Part shown: positions 3,122-33,201 of the stretch, one piece after another | How positions within the stretch are numbered: the stretch's first letter is position 1 | Layout: each line of letters begins with the position of its first letter | Assembly (NCBI GenBank): GCA_902773665.1 | Contig: CACYFF010000001.1 | Location: 62,001 to 126,000, forward strand | Direction of reading: 5' to 3' | Length of the DNA stretch: 64,000 nucleotides | From: an uncultured Eubacteriales bacterium | GTDB lineage: Bacteria; Bacillota; Clostridia; Peptostreptococcales; Anaerovoracaceae | Position numbers and translations under genes: made by a program | Notes under the pieces: model-generated | The model's database searches: none | Seen by the model: the letters and a program-made list of their open reading frames with translations, nothing else | What the model was told of the DNA's origin: nothing

Positions 3122-4060
3122 CTATTCTCCTTCCGTCAGTTTGATCCGCGGATCCACGAAGGCTACCAGCAGATCTCCCAGAAAAACACCGATGACTGAC
3201 AGGATCGCGTACATCAGCACGATCACCTGCACCAGATTGTTGTCCTGGCTCTTGATGGCTGTGGTCAGCAGGCCGCCGGTTCCGGGAATAGCATACAGCG
3301 TCTCGATCACGAGGGAACCTGCGATGATCATCAGCAGATCATAGGGGATATAGATGATTAAAGGGATGGCCGCGTTTTTAAAGACGTGGCGCTTCAGAAC
3401 TTCCCGTTTCGGCAGTCCCTTGACCTGTGCGAATTTTACATAATCCTGATTTTCTTCATCCACCATAAAACGCCGCAACCAGAGCGCATAATACGCGATG
3501 CTGCTTAATGAGAGGCAGATGGTCGGAAGGATCCAGGAAATGGGCCGATCCTTGTAGAAAATCAGCGGCAGATTGAACCATTTCGAGATCCACACCTGAA
3601 TAAAGAACAGATAGATGAGGCTCGGAACAGCCCGCACCAGCAGGATAAACACCGTGCCCAACTTGTCACCGGCTTTGTCTTTAAAGCGCACCATAAAAAG
3701 CCCCAGCCCGACACCGAAAACGATGCCGATCAGCATGCTGGCAAATCCGAAAGCTGCCGTTACGGGGATTTTCTCCTTTAACAGCGTCGCGATGGGGACT
3801 TTGGGATAGACCGTCAAGCTGCGGCCCAGATCGCCGTGGAACATATTGCCGACAAAACGGCCCAGCTGTACCATCGGATGGTCCAGAAGACCTTGGTTCC
3901 GCAGATAGACCATACGGGTCGCTTCGTCTGCTTCTTTGATCATTTCCGGCGGGAAATAGCCGCTCAGGGGCATGAGCCGCAGCAGCATGAAGACTGCCAC
4001 AAACACGATCACCACCGTGAGCAGCGAGCGCAAAGCCCGCCTCAGGATGTATCGGGACAA
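3122..4060 (-). CDS. peptide ABC transporter permease, DppB/OppB family
   Basis: This is the first membrane subunit of the peptide importer, 312 residues with about six membrane helices. It opens with the family hallmark MSRYILRRALRSLLTVVIVF and contains LGRSLTVYPKVPIATLLKEK, the usual OppB/DppB segment after the first periplasmic loop. The C-terminal coupling region includes KNAAIPLIIYIPYDLLMIIAGSLVIE. Length and order (binding protein, B, C, ATPases) fit the family. It is separated from the binding-protein gene by an 84-base gap holding a GC-rich hairpin, which may let the binding protein be made in excess over the membrane parts. Confidence 0.92.
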   Translation of the reverse strand: MSRYILRRALRSLLTVVIVFVAVFMLLRLMPLSGYFPPEMIKEADEATRMVYLRNQGLLDHPMVQLGRFVGNMFHGDLGRSLTVYPKVPIATLLKEKIPVTAAFGFASMLIGIVFGVGLGLFMVRFKDKAGDKLGTVFILLVRAVPSLIYLFFIQVWISKWFNLPLIFYKDRPISWILPTICLSLSSIAYYALWLRRFMVDEENQDYVKFAQVKGLPKREVLKRHVFKNAAIPLIIYIPYDLLMIIAGSLVIETLYAIPGTGGLLTTAIKSQDNNLVQVIVLMYAILSVIGVFLGDLLVAFVDPRIKLTEGE

Positions 4061-4094
4061 AGAAATACCTCCGATTCGAATAATCGTTTGGAAA

Positions 4095-4124
4095 GCGCGC
4101 CGCCAGCAGATGCAGACGGCGCGC
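4095..4124 (-). terminator. intercistronic stem-loop between binding protein and permease genes
   Basis: GCGCGCCG (4095-4102) and CGGCGCGC (4117-4124) form a perfect 8-bp stem with a 14-base loop. Only a short T-rich stretch follows on the minus strand. It lies 3' of the binding-protein stop and before the permease start. The position is typical of partial terminators or RNA-stabilising hairpins that raise binding-protein level over permease level. Confidence 0.6.
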
Positions 4125-4144
4125 AGAAGGGTTAACGGTCTTTC

Positions 4145-6091
4145 TTATTTCGCTTTCAGCGCTTCGGCCCGTTCGATATCGTACTGAGCATCCAGTGCCT
4201 GGAACTCTTCAAAGGTGATGGGCTCCGTCATGACCTGGCAGCCCTTGTACTTATCGTTGCCGTACAGCGTAAGCGGACTGGTATGCGGAACACAGTAGCT
4301 CATGTAGTAGCCTCTCAGAGAGGAGATAAAGGGAATAACAAAGCCCTTTCCTGCTAAATAAGCTTCTGCTTCTGCAAACTTCTGCAGTCTGTCTTCGAAC
4401 GTATCCGCAGCCAGCGCTTCTTCGATCAGCGCATCGTACTCCGGAACATCATAGCAGCCCACGTTTTCCGCGCCGTCCGTGGTGAGACGGGTAAGAATAC
4501 CGGAAGGATCGGCGTAATTTGTGGACAGGGAGTCGAAGTAAATGTCGTAGTTCAGAGGATCTGCTACGGTGCCGTAGGTCCAGCCGGAGAACGCTTCGAT
4601 GTGGAAATCTACGTTCTCTGTACCCAGAGCTTCCTCGATCATCGCCTTGAGGAGCTGCGCCATAACGATCTCGTCTTCATCGTCGGTTCCGACATAGCAG
4701 ATGGTGACAGGCAGTTTGCCGTCGACAGCAAAGCTGCAGACCGGCAGATAATCCACGGTAGTGGGTTCGCAGCCGATGATGTTGCCGTCGGCATCGCACA
4801 GTTCTGCGATCGCCTTTTCCATGTATTCCTTTGCCAGATCCGGATTGGTATAATCCATCTCCTTGATTTCCTTCAGCGGGCTGTAATCCGTATAGTCCTT
4901 GCCGTTGGAGTCGAAAATTGCGCCTTCCGCATTGATGGTGTTGCGGAGGATACGGGAAGGATCCACCGGTTCGCGCAACGCGCCGATAGCTTCTCTGTTC
5001 ATGGCATACATTAAGGCCAGACGGAAGTTTTCGTTGTTGACGAACGCATTGAACTCCGGGTTCTCTCCGTCAAAATCCAGCCACAGATAGTTCGTGGAGA
5101 AGCTGTGATCCGTGGGAATCAGTTTGTCGCCCCATTCCGTTCCCTGCATGGAAAGATACTCTTCCGCAGCGACTGTCGTATAGTCCGTTTCCCCTCTCTT
5201 GAACATTTCCACAGAAGTGGTGTCGTCGGAGATCATCTGGTACTCGACAGTTGCCAGATTGACGTGGTCCTTATCCCAATAGTGGGGGTTTGCCGTAAGT
5301 GTGATCGCCTTGTCCCGCTCGAACTGGGAGATATAGTAGGCGCCGCAGTACAGCATATGTTCGTTATCAATGCCGAAGTCATCGCCCATTTCCACCGCAT
5401 AGTCATATTCGATGGGCAGGAGCAGCATGGAACTTTCGATCAGAGACAGGAAATACGGGGCGCTGCTGTCCAGCGTGTACTGTACCGTATAGTCATCTAG
5501 AGCCTTTACGCCGACCATTTCGTCGAAGCGGGCAGCGGCTTCTTCTCTGGTCATATCGGTCTTATCGCCGCAATCGATATCGTCCAGATCCCAGTAATAG
5601 TCATACAGACCGGAGATCAGGTTGCGCACGACACGCATGGAATAGGCGTCGTTCTGGGGATCCGCGATATAACGGATGCCGTCCACGAAGTCCTGCGCCG
5701 TCAGATCGTATTCGGTTTCTGCACCGGTGTGATCCACCCATTTCAGGCCCTGGCGGATATGGAATGTCCAGACGGTCTCATCGTCATTCGTTTCCCAGCT
5801 TTCTGCCAAAGACGGTACATAGACACCGTAGATGTCCGGTTCCACCAGACCGTCGATGCAGTTGGATACGATTTCCCGAACCGTGGCATAGGCCGTGGAA
5901 AAATAGTTGAAAGATGCATAGGAGCTGCTGAAATAAGTCTTATATGTGTCCACATAGGTCTTGCCTTCCAGCACATCCTGCGCATCTGCCGCAGATGCTC
6001 CTTGGTCCTGAGTGCCCGAACTCGTGCAGGCAGCCAGTGAGAAGATCATTGCGGCGGCCAGCAGCAGAGCCAGCATACGCTTCATTTTCAT
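4145..6091 (-). CDS. peptide-binding lipoprotein, OppA/DppA family (SBP_bac_5)
   Basis: This is the extracellular solute-binding subunit of the peptide importer, 648 residues. The start at 6091 is chosen because GGAGGA lies about 6 nt upstream and the protein then begins with a lipoprotein signal: MKMKRMLALLLAAAMIFSLAAC, with the lipobox Cys near residue 22. An upstream in-frame ATG at 6154 would add 21 unlikely residues. The mature part has the family pattern, including VWTFHIRQGLKWVDHTG and TANPHYWDKD. It is longer than the usual 530-600 residues, within the range of Clostridial homologues. It heads the operon. An amino-acid-fermenting host would use such a system to take up peptides. Confidence 0.93.
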   Translation of the reverse strand: MKMKRMLALLLAAAMIFSLAACTSSGTQDQGASAADAQDVLEGKTYVDTYKTYFSSSYASFNYFSTAYATVREIVSNCIDGLVEPDIYGVYVPSLAESWETNDDETVWTFHIRQGLKWVDHTGAETEYDLTAQDFVDGIRYIADPQNDAYSMRVVRNLISGLYDYYWDLDDIDCGDKTDMTREEAAARFDEMVGVKALDDYTVQYTLDSSAPYFLSLIESSMLLLPIEYDYAVEMGDDFGIDNEHMLYCGAYYISQFERDKAITLTANPHYWDKDHVNLATVEYQMISDDTTSVEMFKRGETDYTTVAAEEYLSMQGTEWGDKLIPTDHSFSTNYLWLDFDGENPEFNAFVNNENFRLALMYAMNREAIGALREPVDPSRILRNTINAEGAIFDSNGKDYTDYSPLKEIKEMDYTNPDLAKEYMEKAIAELCDADGNIIGCEPTTVDYLPVCSFAVDGKLPVTICYVGTDDEDEIVMAQLLKAMIEEALGTENVDFHIEAFSGWTYGTVADPLNYDIYFDSLSTNYADPSGILTRLTTDGAENVGCYDVPEYDALIEEALAADTFEDRLQKFAEAEAYLAGKGFVIPFISSLRGYYMSYCVPHTSPLTLYGNDKYKGCQVMTEPITFEEFQALDAQYDIERAEALKAK

Positions 6092-26514: not shown

Positions 26515-27375
26515 ATGAACACCATAGAATTAAAGGCAAAAGCAAAAGTAAATCTCATCCTGAACGTGCTGGGAAAACGCCCGGACGGATACCACGAACT
26601 GCAGATGGTGATGCAGGCCATCGACCTGGCGGACGACGTGCGTATCGAATGGGAACGGCAGACCGGCGAGATGGCGATCCGGGGCTGTTTCCTGGGAGGC
26701 ATGCAGATCGCGCTGGATCCGGGGCATAAAAAACTGCCCTCCGGGCCGAACAACCTGGCGTATCAGGCAGCATCGAAGATGTACGATGCGTTCCACCGGG
26801 GCAGGCGGGAAGTCTGCACGATCGAGATCCGCAAGAACATTCCCCTGGCTGCAGGCCTGGCGGGCGGTTCGACGGATGCTGCGGCAGTCATCTGGGGTCT
26901 GGCGAGGCTCTGGGACCTGGCGCCGAACGAAACGGATGAAGGAATGGACCCGGAAGTGCGGCAGACGCTGTTCGACATCGCGCTTTCCATCGGCTCGGAC
27001 GTGCCCTTCTGTCTGGCGGCTGCCATGGGTCACACGGCGGCCATTGCCGAAGGCCGGGGCGAAAAGCTGACGTACATCGAGCCGCTGCACGCCCGCATCG
27101 AAACGTACACGCCGCCTGTCGAGGTGCCGACGGCGAAGGTCTACGGGGCGCTGAAGCCGGAGGATTACGCCGTGCCTTACGACGTGGCCGGTTACCTGAA
27201 GGCGGAGACAGTGCGGGAGAAGTGTGCGTATCTGGGCAACCATCTGCAGGCGCCGGCCTGCCGGCTGTATCCCAGGATCGCTAAGGAAATAGAACGTTTA
27301 TCGCAGATAGACGATGGGCTTTGCACGCTGCAATCCGGCAGCGGACCCACGGTATTTACGGTTTTTGAACAGTAA
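26515..27375 (+). CDS. ispE: 4-diphosphocytidyl-2-C-methyl-D-erythritol kinase
   Basis: This GHMP-family kinase of 286 residues catalyses the ATP-dependent step of the MEP isoprenoid pathway. The N-terminus KAKAKVNLILNVLGKRPDGYHE is diagnostic, followed by the GHMP ATP loop NIPLAAGLAGGSTDAAAV (about residues 110-127) and C-terminal LQSGSGPTVFTVF. These N-terminal residues begin right at the ATG at 26515, so the start is secure even though no Shine-Dalgarno sequence precedes it. A TGC TATAAT element ends 6 nt before the ATG, which predicts leaderless translation. The dehydrogenase gene follows after 10 bases. Confidence 0.94.
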   Translation: MNTIELKAKAKVNLILNVLGKRPDGYHELQMVMQAIDLADDVRIEWERQTGEMAIRGCFLGGMQIALDPGHKKLPSGPNNLAYQAASKMYDAFHRGRREVCTIEIRKNIPLAAGLAGGSTDAAAVIWGLARLWDLAPNETDEGMDPEVRQTLFDIALSIGSDVPFCLAAAMGHTAAIAEGRGEKLTYIEPLHARIETYTPPVEVPTAKVYGALKPEDYAVPYDVAGYLKAETVREKCAYLGNHLQAPACRLYPRIAKEIERLSQIDDGLCTLQSGSGPTVFTVFEQ

Positions 27376-27385
27376 AGGAGCAACA

Positions 27386-28333
27386 ATGAAGATCGTCGTT
27401 TTGAACGGAGCAAAAGTAAACTACGATGGCCTGGCGGGCTACGATTCCCTGGGCGAAGAGGTCGTCTGCTACGACGCCAGCACCCCCGAACAGTACGCGG
27501 AGAGAGCGGAGGGCGCGGAAGTCCTGGTCTCCAAGGAGCTGCCCATGAACGCGGATTCCATCCGGGCTCTGCCGGACTGCGTCAAGCTCATCTGCGAAGC
27601 CGGCACGGGCTACAACAACATCGACCTGGCCGCCTGCAAGGAAAAGGGCATCAAGGTCGCTAACGTTCCGGCCTATTCCACGGACCGGGTGGCCCAGACC
27701 GCCGTCATGATGCTGCTCAACCTGTCCTCGGAGATGGGAAAGCAGATCCGGGCGCTGGAAAAGGGTGACCGCTCCAACTTTACGAAATATCTCGGGGTCA
27801 GTCATACAGAAGTGAACGGCAAGACGCTGGGCGTCGTGGGCGCGGGCCACATCGGCGGCAAGGTGATCGAGATCGCCAAAGCCCTCGGCATGAACATCCT
27901 GGTCTATACCCGCACACCGAAAGATTTCGGACCGGGAACGAAGAATGTGAGCCTGGAAGAGCTGCTGAAAGAGAGCGACTATGTAACGCTGCACTGCCCG
28001 CTCACGCCGCAGACGAAGCACATCATCAACGAAGAGAGCCTTAAACTGATGAAGCCCACTGCCTGCCTCATCAACGCGAGCAGGGGCGCTCTGGTGAACG
28101 AACCCGCCCTCATCCAGGCGCTGCAGGAAGGCCGCCTGGCAGGAGCCGGTCTGGACGTACAGGAGACGGAGCCTCCCGTTGCGGATAATCCTCTCTACGA
28201 CATGCCCAACGTCATCCTCACCCCGCACATGGGCTGGAAGGGTCTGGAGACCCGCCGCCGCCTCGTGCAGGTGCTGGCCGACAACATCGCCGCCTACGCT
28301 AAGGGTGAGAAGCTTAACATCGTAAGCGACTAA
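27386..28333 (+). CDS. D-isomer-specific 2-hydroxyacid dehydrogenase
   Basis: This NAD(P)-dependent oxidoreductase of 315 residues reduces a 2-keto acid or oxidises the D-hydroxy acid. The Rossmann motif GVVGAGHIGGKVIEIAKALG lies near residue 150. The catalytic Arg is in LINASRGALVNEPAL, the Glu in DVQETEPPVADNPLYD, and the His in VILTPHMGWKGLE. The start at 27386 has AAAGGAG 6 nt upstream. D-lactate, glycerate and hydroxyisocaproate dehydrogenases all fit, so the substrate is open; in amino-acid fermenters such enzymes often reduce the 2-keto acids formed by deamination. It is cotranscribed with ispE. Confidence 0.88.
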   Translation: MKIVVLNGAKVNYDGLAGYDSLGEEVVCYDASTPEQYAERAEGAEVLVSKELPMNADSIRALPDCVKLICEAGTGYNNIDLAACKEKGIKVANVPAYSTDRVAQTAVMMLLNLSSEMGKQIRALEKGDRSNFTKYLGVSHTEVNGKTLGVVGAGHIGGKVIEIAKALGMNILVYTRTPKDFGPGTKNVSLEELLKESDYVTLHCPLTPQTKHIINEESLKLMKPTACLINASRGALVNEPALIQALQEGRLAGAGLDVQETEPPVADNPLYDMPNVILTPHMGWKGLETRRRLVQVLADNIAAYAKGEKLNIVSD

Positions 28334-28364
28334 CCGCAGCCAGCGGTTTGCCGAAAGAGAAGAT

Positions 28365-28400
28365 GTTAAGCGTATTGACATTCTCCACAATTCGCTTAAC
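28365..28400. repeat. inverted repeat pair 1: GTTAAGCG-N20-CGCTTAAC
   Basis: GTTAAGCG (28365-28372) and CGCTTAAC (28393-28400) are perfect complements separated by exactly 20 nt. The 305-base gap between two convergent genes (28334-28637) holds no gene. It contains this pair, a bidirectional terminator and a second pair with identical spacing. Confidence 0.75.
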
Positions 28401-28474
28401 AGTTTTTCGCCCTACAAACCAGAGGATCGTGCGAGTCTTGATAGACCTTGAAAGCATTTGTTAAAAATAATGCG

Positions 28475-28515
28475 AAAAAAGTCCGTACGCTTAACATGCG
28501 TACAGACTTTTTTTT
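28475..28515. terminator. bidirectional terminator within the repeat array
   Basis: AAGTC-c-GTACGC (28479-28490) pairs with GCGTAC-a-GACTT (28498-28509) around a TTAACAT loop, flanked by A and T runs on the two sides. It suits termination of both the dehydrogenase gene (plus) and the phosphoesterase gene (minus). Its left arm and loop also form a perfect 15-bp inverted repeat with 28555-28569. Confidence 0.8.
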
Positions 28516-28554
28516 ATTGATCCTGATTAAATCTTTAAAAAGCGTTTAAATACT

Positions 28555-28590
28555 GTTAAGCGTACGGACAGTTATCGCGAAACGCTTAAC
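28555..28590. repeat. inverted repeat pair 2: GTTAAGCG-N20-CGCTTAAC
   Basis: GTTAAGCG (28555-28562) and CGCTTAAC (28583-28590) are again exactly 20 nt apart. The left element extends to GTTAAGCGTACGGAC, the exact complement of 28481-28495 in the terminator arm. Confidence 0.75.
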
Positions 28591-28637
28591 AACAGCTCGC
28601 GCGGCACGGACATACACGGGTCAGCAGCAAGGCATCT

Positions 28638-29807
28638 TTACAACGTCACGTCCACGCACACGATCTCGCTGTCCGTTCCCACCCGCAGAGGCACCTGGAA
28701 GACGCCCGCACCAGCGGATACGATGGAGGTCGTGTTTCTCGTTTTGGCGAGGCCGTGGAAATAGCCTTCGGGGAAGGCGCGGCCCACGAAGAAATTGTAG
28801 GGGAAGAACTGTCCCTGGTGGCTGTGACCCGCCAGCACCAGCTCCGCGCCGCAGTCTGCGGCCTGCGCGATGCCCATGGGGTCGTGATCCAGCACGACAG
28901 TGGGTTTTGCAGCGTCTGCCAGGGTCAGCAGTTTCTGCAGCGGCACCCGTCTCTCGCCGTCCGCTACCACGCCGGTGCGGCCCACCAGGTTAAACCCGTC
29001 CAGCACGACGCAGCCGTTGTCCAGCGGCGAGATACCGGACTCTTCGTAAAACTCCGCCAGCGCGGCATCGTCCGGCTCGGGATCGTGGTTGCCCAGGACG
29101 GCCCACTTGCCGTCTTCCGCCGTCAGAGTGTTTAGGATCGCAGCGACTTCGTGCTCGTCGCGGCACTCGTCCACATAGCTGTGGTTGAACTGGTCGCCGG
29201 TAAAGACGATCAGGTCCGGATGCAGAGCCTTCGTTTCCGCAGTGATGCGCTTGATCAGCCGCTCTCCCACGATCGCGCCGATGTGCAGGTCGGAAAGCTG
29301 CACGATGCGGTAGGGCCTGCCGCCCTTGGACTTTAGATCCACATCGTAATGCACGACCACCGGATGGGTCGCGTGGACCGTGCCGTTGATGACGACGCAG
29401 ATGCCGAAGAGCATGCCGGCGAGGATCATCCAGGCGCGGAAATGCGGCGCCTCGACAAAACGGTGCAGGGCCAGATAGATGAGGTCGCTCAGCACGATCA
29501 TGGGCGTGCCGTACATCAGCAGTCCCACGGCGACGCCGGAGATGCGCACACCGGTACGGTAGACCTTGGAATCGAGACGCGCGTCCGTGGAAAAACGCTG
29601 GAAAAAGGCCAGCACGATGGCGATCGCGCTGAGTTCCGGTCCGGGATTCGCACCGAAGATCTGCTCGATGGCATAACCGGTCCGCACGCTGGTGTAGACG
29701 CAGCATGCGATGGCGAACACCGTTACCGCCCCCTGGGGCCAGTGGTGTTTTTTATTGTTGTAGCGGTCCGTTCTCGCCGGATCGTTGAATTTCTTTAAAA
29801 GTTCCAT
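28638..29807 (-). CDS. membrane-anchored metallophosphoesterase
   Basis: This calcineurin-like phosphoesterase of 389 residues has about four N-terminal membrane helices (residues 25-150, for example AVTVFAIACCVYTSVRTGYA and MILAGMLFGICVVINGTV). The catalytic metal site follows: LSDLHIGAIVGERL, FTGDQFNHS, AVLGNHDPE, VLDHDPMGI, and the closing ELVLAGHSHQGQFFP. The family includes YkuE-type enzymes acting on phosphodiesters such as lipid pyrophosphates; the substrate here is unknown. The ATG at 29807 has no ribosome site; a TATAAT ends 9 nt before it, so the leader is at most a few bases long. Confidence 0.87.
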   Translation of the reverse strand: MELLKKFNDPARTDRYNNKKHHWPQGAVTVFAIACCVYTSVRTGYAIEQIFGANPGPELSAIAIVLAFFQRFSTDARLDSKVYRTGVRISGVAVGLLMYGTPMIVLSDLIYLALHRFVEAPHFRAWMILAGMLFGICVVINGTVHATHPVVVHYDVDLKSKGGRPYRIVQLSDLHIGAIVGERLIKRITAETKALHPDLIVFTGDQFNHSYVDECRDEHEVAAILNTLTAEDGKWAVLGNHDPEPDDAALAEFYEESGISPLDNGCVVLDGFNLVGRTGVVADGERRVPLQKLLTLADAAKPTVVLDHDPMGIAQAADCGAELVLAGHSHQGQFFPYNFFVGRAFPEGYFHGLAKTRNTTSIVSAGAGVFQVPLRVGTDSEIVCVDVTL

Positions 29808-29816
29808 AACAGTACT

Positions 29817-29822
29817 ATTATA
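29817..29822 (-). promoter_or_regulatory. -10 box of the metallophosphoesterase gene
   Basis: TATAAT on the minus strand lies 9 nt before the ATG, placing the transcription start within about 3 bases of the start codon. It follows directly after the terminator of the upstream gene. Confidence 0.5.
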
Positions 29823-29824
29823 CT

Positions 29825-29853
29825 GCAAAAGCCGGCGTTTGGCGCGCCGGCTT
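29825..29853 (-). terminator. terminator of the DUF4230 gene
   Basis: AAGCCGGCG and CGCCGGCTT (29829-29837 with 29845-29853) form a 9-bp stem, followed by TTTTGC on the minus strand. It lies between the DUF4230 gene and the metallophosphoesterase promoter. Confidence 0.75.
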
Positions 29854-29885
29854 CCAAATTTACGGGGTAGCCCCCTTTGCATTTC

Positions 29886-32559: not shown

Positions 32560-33000
32560 TTAAACGTTGATCTCTTCTTTCAGGGTCGTCAGGTTGATGA
32601 TCGTCGTTGTCGTGACCACGCCCGGGATCCCCTTCAGAAAGTCGGAAATGAACGATTCCAGCTCGTCCGTATCGGCGACGAGCACTTTCAGCAGGTAATC
32701 GCTCTGCCCTGCCACGTGGTGACATTCCAGAACGTGCCTGCTGCGCACGACCTCCGCCCGGAAGCGGTTGATGTTCTCCGTCGTGTCCAGCGTGACCAGG
32801 ATAAACACGAGCAGTTTATAGCCCAGCGCCTTCCGGTTCACCTTCACCAGATATCCTTCGATGATGCCGCTGCGTTCCATCTTGCGGATGCGTTCCGCCG
32901 TCGCGGGAACCGACAGCGAGACCGCCTTGCTGACGTCGGATGCGGTCGCCCGCCCGTTTTTCTTCAGTTCTTCCAGGATCTTGACATCGATATCGTCCAT
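32560..33000 (-). CDS. Lrp/AsnC family transcriptional regulator
   Basis: This feast/famine regulator of 146 residues has an N-terminal helix-turn-helix (MDDIDVKILEELKKNGRATA, then SVPATAERIRKMERSGIIEG) and a C-terminal RAM domain (LLVFILVTLDTTENINRFRA, VLECHHVAGQSDYLLKVLVA) that binds amino acids and oligomerises. A GAGGAC site precedes the ATG. It is the first gene of a two-gene operon with the LysE exporter, a common arrangement in which the regulator induces export when an amino acid accumulates. Confidence 0.9.
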   Translation of the reverse strand: MDDIDVKILEELKKNGRATASDVSKAVSLSVPATAERIRKMERSGIIEGYLVKVNRKALGYKLLVFILVTLDTTENINRFRAEVVRSRHVLECHHVAGQSDYLLKVLVADTDELESFISDFLKGIPGVVTTTTIINLTTLKEEINV

Positions 33001-33078: not shown

Positions 33079-33105
33079 TTTAAGTTTATTCAGCTTATTC
33101 TTAAA
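33079..33105. promoter_or_regulatory. candidate operator upstream of the lrp-lysE operon
   Basis: TTTAAG (33079-33084) and CTTAAA (33100-33105) form an inverted repeat with a 15-base AT-rich spacer. It is just upstream of a TATAAT (33061-33066, minus strand) that could serve the Lrp gene. AT-rich imperfect palindromes are usual for Lrp/AsnC autoregulation. The assignment is inference. Confidence 0.35.
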
Positions 33106-33129
33106 CATCTTGCGCGTCGCACGGAAAGA

Positions 33130-33160: not shown

Positions 33161-33174
33161 GATTGCAAATGTCC

Positions 33175-33193
33175 CATGGGGACTGTCCCCATG
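33175..33193. repeat. GGGGAC-family palindrome next to the thiolase stop
   Basis: CATGGGGAC-T-GTCCCCATG is a perfect 9-bp inverted repeat around a single base, 9 bases from the thiolase stop codon. It shares CATGGGGAC with 31911-31919 and the GGGGAC core with copies near 19077 and 63767. Confidence 0.65.
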
Positions 33194-33201
33194 TGTACTT
33201 T

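Follow-up and report, generated by a model that had tools for sequence, protein, structure and literature searches.

The stretch of 64,000 nt analysed here (hereafter the window) carries, in a gap between two convergent genes, an array of palindromes that, judged from its sequence and from related loci, is very probably an orphan site array of a nuclease family. The fuller reading, which we favour on balance, is that of an orphan same-face binding array for the nuclease encoded on contig C6 of the same assembly, the array being a non-autonomous part, a landing site or a scar of a mobile element that encodes this nuclease. Its parts differ in strength: direct binding of the arrays by the nuclease itself appears quite likely, and a mobility of the arrays driven by the nuclease has almost an even chance.

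An initial annotation had reported five copies of a 9-mer within 230 bases, and the five GTTAAGCG/TGTTAAGCG copies are indeed where it placed them: GTTAAGCG is found five times in the 64-kb window, always within 28365-28590, a count reached in 2 of 100 whole-window shuffles, from which no clustering was required. The two exact GTTAAGCG-N20-CGCTTAAC pairs that it described are likewise present, at 28365-28400 and 28555-28590, and the fifth copy does lie inside a terminator-like stem. As this fifth copy is also the right arm of a further palindrome, the array consists of three palindromes, not two (Table 1), and their start-to-start spacing, when mismatches are allowed, is exactly 95 + 95 bp. 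Both flanking genes end at the gap, as had been noticed, the dehydrogenase gene (with a likelier start at the ATG at 27386) stopping at 28333 and the phosphoesterase gene at 28638.

Table 1. Features around the window array, and palindrome arms at the five nuclease genes of the window's assembly (G000).
Feature	Position in window	Strand	Remark
Palindrome 1, TGTTAAGC-N22-GCTTAACA	28364..28401	.	two 8-bp half-sites
Palindrome 2, TGTTAAAA-N22-GCTTAACA	28459..28496	.	left arm degenerate, 2 mismatches
Palindrome 3, TGTTAAGC-N22-GCTTAACA	28554..28591	.	
Entire orphan array	28364..28591	.	228 bp, three same-face palindromes
Bidirectional terminator-like stem-loop	28475..28513	.	overlaps right arm of palindrome 2
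D-2-hydroxyacid dehydrogenase gene	27314..28333	+	longest reading frame; converges on array
Calcineurin-like phosphoesterase gene	28638..29882	-	converges on array
Empty G000 counterpart of the Lrp-upstream orphan array of G001	33105..33127	.	
G000 nuclease C6			arm TGTTAAGC
G000 nuclease C33			arm TGTTACCT
G000 nuclease C5, first (C5a)			arm CCTAAGCG
G000 nuclease C34			arm TCTAAGTC
G000 nuclease C5, second (C5b)			arm TGTATCGA

The initial annotation would have reduced the array to a local duplication had there been no second occurrence, no conservation and no transcript; the search of the genome and its relatives found the first two. In G000, the assembly to which the window belongs (2.22 Mb, 41 contigs), TGTTAAGCG occurs 12 times, with five copies in the window array and five clustered on contig C6, where the palindrome cluster encloses an open frame of 294 codons, that of the C6 nuclease (L070:6667-7551). 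The pattern GTTAAGC-N18..26-GCTTAAC is found 6, 6, 4 and 10 times in G000, G001, G002 and G004, respectively, always with a spacer of 22 or 23 nt. No copy of the looser TGTTAAGC-type palindrome exists in G003, G005, G006 and G007, which are of the same genus, and the reversed control pattern is absent from all eight congeneric genomes. With stricter arms, the palindrome is present in 4 of 61 genomes, all four congeneric. The distribution follows that of the nuclease: TGTTAAGC palindromes occur only in the four of eight congeneric genomes whose best nuclease match shares 59% or more identity with the C6 protein; G003, G005, G006 and G007 have no nuclease at that level.

Homologues of the C6 nuclease were detected in 17 of 61 genomes and in none of 24 from other families of the order; across the class, a profile search of 291 genomes gave matches in 33, some of them within large proteins, and a single genome may have up to eight or more copies. 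The named relatives come from metagenome assemblies of Bacillota and Clostridia, 9 of the 14 records bearing titles that refer to ruminant stomach samples, and no nuclease match was obtained in viral contigs (alignment A3). None of the members tested reaches the cut-off of any Pfam or NCBIfam family, and a profile built from 23 members detects T7 endonuclease I chains with E values of 0.0043-0.04. The AlphaFold2 model computed from 13 members (mean pLDDT 87) predicts an N-terminal helix, a beta hairpin and a long helix, followed by a PD-(D/E)XK domain. By VIA-align, the closest structure to this nuclease domain is TnsA (Z 8.6, 3.1 A over 120 residues, a Z that is middling taken alone), and Bax1 is matched with Z 7.4 and a Foldseek E of 1.6e-3; model and profile match together assign to the protein the PD-(D/E)XK core fold. 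For the N-terminal domain, the fold search gave nothing beyond generic coiled coils, which is uninformative as to the relatives of this domain. Among the 23 proteins, the acidic catalytic residues are conserved (E187 and D217 invariant, E231 nearly so), and the Lys of the E-x-K motif is absent from its usual position, with L, F, A or others following E231-H. Several accepted PD-(D/E)XK members likewise deviate at this Lys, and K247 or K185, both nearly invariant, may stand in for it.

We then come to the correspondence between nucleases and sites. The profile search finds five copies of the nuclease family in G000, all of them flanked by their own palindromes and with five different arm sequences (Table 1). 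The scores of these five arrays were reached by none of 20 shuffles each, nor by any of 12 non-array pieces of the window. The C6 and C33 nucleases are 42% identical, and the others about 21-31% over the matched parts. The pattern GTTACCT-N-AGGTAAC matched on both sides of the C33 nuclease and nowhere else; it revealed no orphan array. In the wider set, 28 of 54 nuclease loci scored positive for arrays, against 0 of 26 control pieces (Fisher 6e-7), the other 26 loci having no array by the score used. The 54 loci comprise L021-L050, L059, L063 and 22 of the 30 loci from the class-wide profile search; left out were L064-L069, L056-L058 and L060-L062 (the latter two ranges as duplicates) and, from the class-wide search, L112 (the C6 copy), L137-L141 (large proteins), L129 and L130. 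The controls are 16 window pieces and 10 loci, L104 having been dropped since it holds the C6 element.

L086 (G004:C324) has a full TGTTAAGA-type nuclease gene (3587-4471) and a truncated second N-terminal copy (4830-5231); an orphan TGTTAAGA array is present in G001 (L083:3110-3356); and in L125 (G144), arrays of 15 and 9 palindromes with a nearly constant 53-bp pitch lie one on each side of the nuclease gene, mutually inverted (213-1107 and 2392-2855 on the nuclease-sense strand).

Across subfamilies, the palindromes are set whole turns of B-DNA apart, with a best period of 10.5 bp. The centre-to-centre spacings of neighbouring TGTTAAGC-type palindromes include 53.5, 64, 74-75, 84-86, 93-96, 105-105.5, 113-115 and 126 bp; from 30 such spacings, 25 of them under 130 bp, a scan of periods from 6 to 30 bp gives 10.47 bp as the best (R 0.81), with an offset of 0.35 bp at a period of 10.5 bp. 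The loci with other arms, picked for showing arrays and blind to spacing, give 10.52 bp (13 loci, 43 spacings, R 0.845), and four of the own-genome paralogues have R 0.89 over 12 spacings. A third set, assembled automatically from distant genomes, is weak alone: after deduplication (n=17), its best period is 11.3 bp (76 of 4000 random sets as good), with R 0.575 and p 0.004. When all sets are pooled and each distinct spacing is counted once per locus, the resulting 55 spacings give 10.54 bp (R 0.74), and none of 4000 random sets was as good. Note that these p-values are rough, because the loci are partly related. Such phasing points to proteins on one face of duplex DNA. A protein-binding array had been among the options first proposed, and this option is supported by the helical phasing together with a cognate nuclease gene that carries the same sites.

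The anatomy of the nuclease loci is that of a gene between arrays. The genes often have palindromes on both sides, with internal spacings that are often matched (64-42-63 on either side at L043, about 50-42 on either side at C34). In 4 of 10 loci compared, the flanking arrays are long direct repeats, identical at 193 of 212 columns (91%), 128 of 134 (95.5%), 123 of 133 (92.5%) and 147 of 177 (83%); at L125 and C5a they are inverted, and at C5b, C33, L120 and L121 they have no long similarity. In C6-type loci, the upstream region of the nuclease gene is enclosed by two palindromes at a distance of ~190 bp, and one lies within the 5' codons; of the genes nearby, those scanned encode a Cys/Met PLP enzyme, a DUF6773 protein and an HTH_3 protein. 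In G000, G001 and G002, nuclease and arrays lie between the DUF6773-type and Cys/Met PLP genes; in G004, this gap holds a four-palindrome array without nuclease, the nuclease being found beyond the PLP gene instead. Several species keep the nuclease in its position next to the Cys/Met PLP gene, so it is not highly mobile. At the same locus in G003, the flanks are 97-98% identical to those of G000, the nuclease itself shares no more than 41% identity and TGTTAAGC palindromes are lacking; comparison of the whole locus between these two genomes revealed no clean element border. Near this replaced allele (L076, G003:C40), full and partial copies of the Cys/Met PLP gene (404-1597 and 3584-4051) and a direct repeat of roughly 75 bp (near 4127 and 7268) were also observed.

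Orphan arrays are inserted in a species-specific manner, in keeping with the non-autonomous mobile remnant that the initial annotation listed as another option. In G004, 316 nt with a three-palindrome array are cleanly inserted between pyrD and pyrF (assigned by Pfam), genes that adjoin or lie a few bases apart in all six other genomes compared (G000, G001, G002, G003, G005 and G007). In G001, about 300 nt with an array lie upstream of the Lrp gene, and this array is absent from G000, where the Lrp gene is at 32560-33000 and the empty counterpart site lies upstream of it (Table 1), and from G002 and G003. The window array is itself absent from the orthologous gap of G003 and G001, which measures about 105 and 90 bp versus 304 bp. 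The earlier argument that the array cannot act as a 5' element holds for the window copy alone, since other copies stand upstream of Lrp or in the pyrD-pyrF gap. Neither of these two insertions showed a target-site duplication, but their flanks differ between species and the border is uncertain by about 30 nt at one of the two. In 28 pairwise comparisons of eight arrays, the orphan arrays have only the arms and short adjoining matches in common. This suggests either conservation of the arms with drift of the remaining sequence, or donors that lie outside these assemblies.

From these features a mechanism can be proposed. A dimer of the nuclease would recognise both 8-bp half-sites across the roughly 22-23 bp that separate them, and dimers at adjacent sites would align on one face of the DNA to form a single complex. 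Each array would be an end, a landing site or a leftover scar of a mobile element organised as array, nuclease gene and array, and the nuclease is predicted to cut at these arrays. Loss of the gene could then follow from cuts that provoke recombination between the direct repeats and leave a solo array, much as solo LTRs form, and gain could occur when, after nuclease cuts, an array is copied or joined into breaks elsewhere. Since one palindrome of the C6 subfamily overlaps codons about 10-22 of the nuclease, this site within the 5' end of the gene would allow the protein to repress its own expression, as it probably does.

The arrays might instead be operators of a regulator of the host or of the element, the nuclease genes carrying their own control regions and the orphans being sites co-opted by other genes. 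The bracketing palindromes of the C6-type loci, together with the one in the 5' codons, resemble looping repression, and the orphan array of G001 does stand upstream of a regulator gene, Lrp. We nevertheless consider this explanation unlikely: arrays are also found downstream of nuclease genes and in convergent gaps, where promoters are not expected, and five arm types at five nucleases within one genome would call for five separate regulators.

A defence system, in which invading DNA is the target of the nuclease and the arrays serve to park, tether or titrate the enzyme on the host chromosome, would account for the presence in one genome of many divergent copies whose sites differ, and for the allele replacement in G003 between nearly identical flanks. 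All 23 members tested also give matches to the nuclease domain at the C-terminal end of PDC-S68, a PADLOC candidate, and the same nuclease domain was observed at L137-L141 within open frames of about 820-970 codons; the large-protein copies and the PDC-S68 match suggest an origin shared with candidate defence proteins. However, the PDC-S68 models are ~1,200 positions long and do not describe stand-alone nucleases, no antitoxin or modification partner was identified, and the 18-base site is absent from the viral contigs searched, so that a phage target finds no support. Defence thus appears distinctly unlikely as the role of the arrays.

Action by folding, as a small RNA, a terminator pair or a DNA cruciform, is very improbable. 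It could draw on the bidirectional terminator-like stem and on an alternative pairing that the initial annotation had pointed out and that is indeed perfect over 15 nt, between the terminator arm GTCCGTACGCTTAAC (28481-28495) and 28555-28569. But this pairing is not common to the other arrays, and the arms do not evolve as paired strands. In 41 TGTTAAGC-type palindromes (the four tandem copies of G004 counted as one, the TGTTAAGA type left out), whose arm core GTTAA is nearly invariant, 37 arm pairs depart from the consensus; in 34 of these 37 a single side is altered, with a G-T pair left in 11, and two carry Watson-Crick compensated changes. Such one-sided changes fit two independent protein half-sites, and a phasing of 10.5 bp is characteristic of duplex DNA. 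The Rfam scan of 28000-29000 gave no match at the gathering score, and a promoter search at the array gave no signal clearly above chance. With arms almost never compensated and bodies unshared as well, the small RNA first listed among the options is not sustained, nor are the two mutually exclusive folds drawn from the 15-nt pairing.

A chance occurrence or a local duplication of some short repeat, to which the single array in the window without further copies in its remainder might have pointed, is refuted by the cognate arrays elsewhere in G000 and in three relatives, with no match to the reversed-pattern controls, and has a negligible probability.

The orphan binding array for the C6 nuclease that we favour has likenesses with several known systems. 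REP sequences and their RAYT partners (REPtrons) also combine short intergenic palindromes with a related gene, which possesses sites of its own; here, however, the partner is a PD-(D/E)XK nuclease and not a Y1 HUH transposase, the arms have 8 bp with 22-23 bp between them, the hairpin is not kept and the sets are helically phased. MITEs and non-autonomous IS relatives are, similarly, non-coding insertions whose recognition sites belong to a gene at another place in the genome, and the C6 nuclease locus, which carries the same palindromes, is a candidate for such a cognate element; unlike in MITEs, no known transposase acts as the partner and no body is shared, and at the two insertions mentioned above, with flanks that differ between species, no target-site duplication was seen. 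The array/nuclease pair thus fails one testable defining feature each of REP/RAYT and of MITEs. Tn7 shares the fold of the TnsA nuclease domain and transposon ends with multiple protein-binding sites, whereas the present nuclease is stand-alone, has an N-terminal domain of helix, beta hairpin and long helix, and is associated with same-face palindromes. Homing endonuclease genes are free-standing nuclease genes beside their own sites, present or absent among relatives, but the sites here are intact on both sides of the gene, not split, and several are phased in each array. Solo LTRs and integron cassettes offer an analogy, in that a gene lies between direct repeats of the array and solo arrays occur; they differ in that no reverse transcriptase or tyrosine integrase is known here and that the arrays are inverted in two loci. 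The portions of the open-licence literature available, preprints excluded, contained no account of the nuclease/array system or of a function of the nuclease.

Taken at its widest, and with somewhat less than even confidence, this would be an undescribed class of mobile elements in gut Clostridia, built of TnsA/T7-endonuclease-I-like stand-alone nucleases and of 8-bp half-sites ~23 bp apart, commonly in three same-face palindromes, that spread both the gene and gene-less arrays via their own breaks; related nucleases, whose arms differ, would then supply a naturally occurring collection of orthogonal nuclease/site pairs. Genes for stand-alone members of the family are common, and many are accompanied by their own palindromes at whole DNA turns. 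Should the nucleases move DNA, they would constitute mobile elements of a new kind; should they do no more than bind it, they would make up an extensive family of orthogonal DNA-binding systems.

A phage or plasmid origin of the array body was considered and discarded: the matches were two records of one virus over 36 nt (E 0.08), and a further search returned none. Two other repeats were encountered in the course of the analysis. A different conserved palindrome, GTTAAGAGRCAA...GCCTCTTAAC, is present at G000:C3:120012-120046 and in counterparts in G001, G002, G003 and G005; its spacer is largely conserved too, and it looks like an unrelated hairpin. A second short repeat family, GGGGAC...GTCCCC / GGGACGGTTCCTTGTCCCA, occupies gaps in the window (33170-33195) and in L053 and L081.
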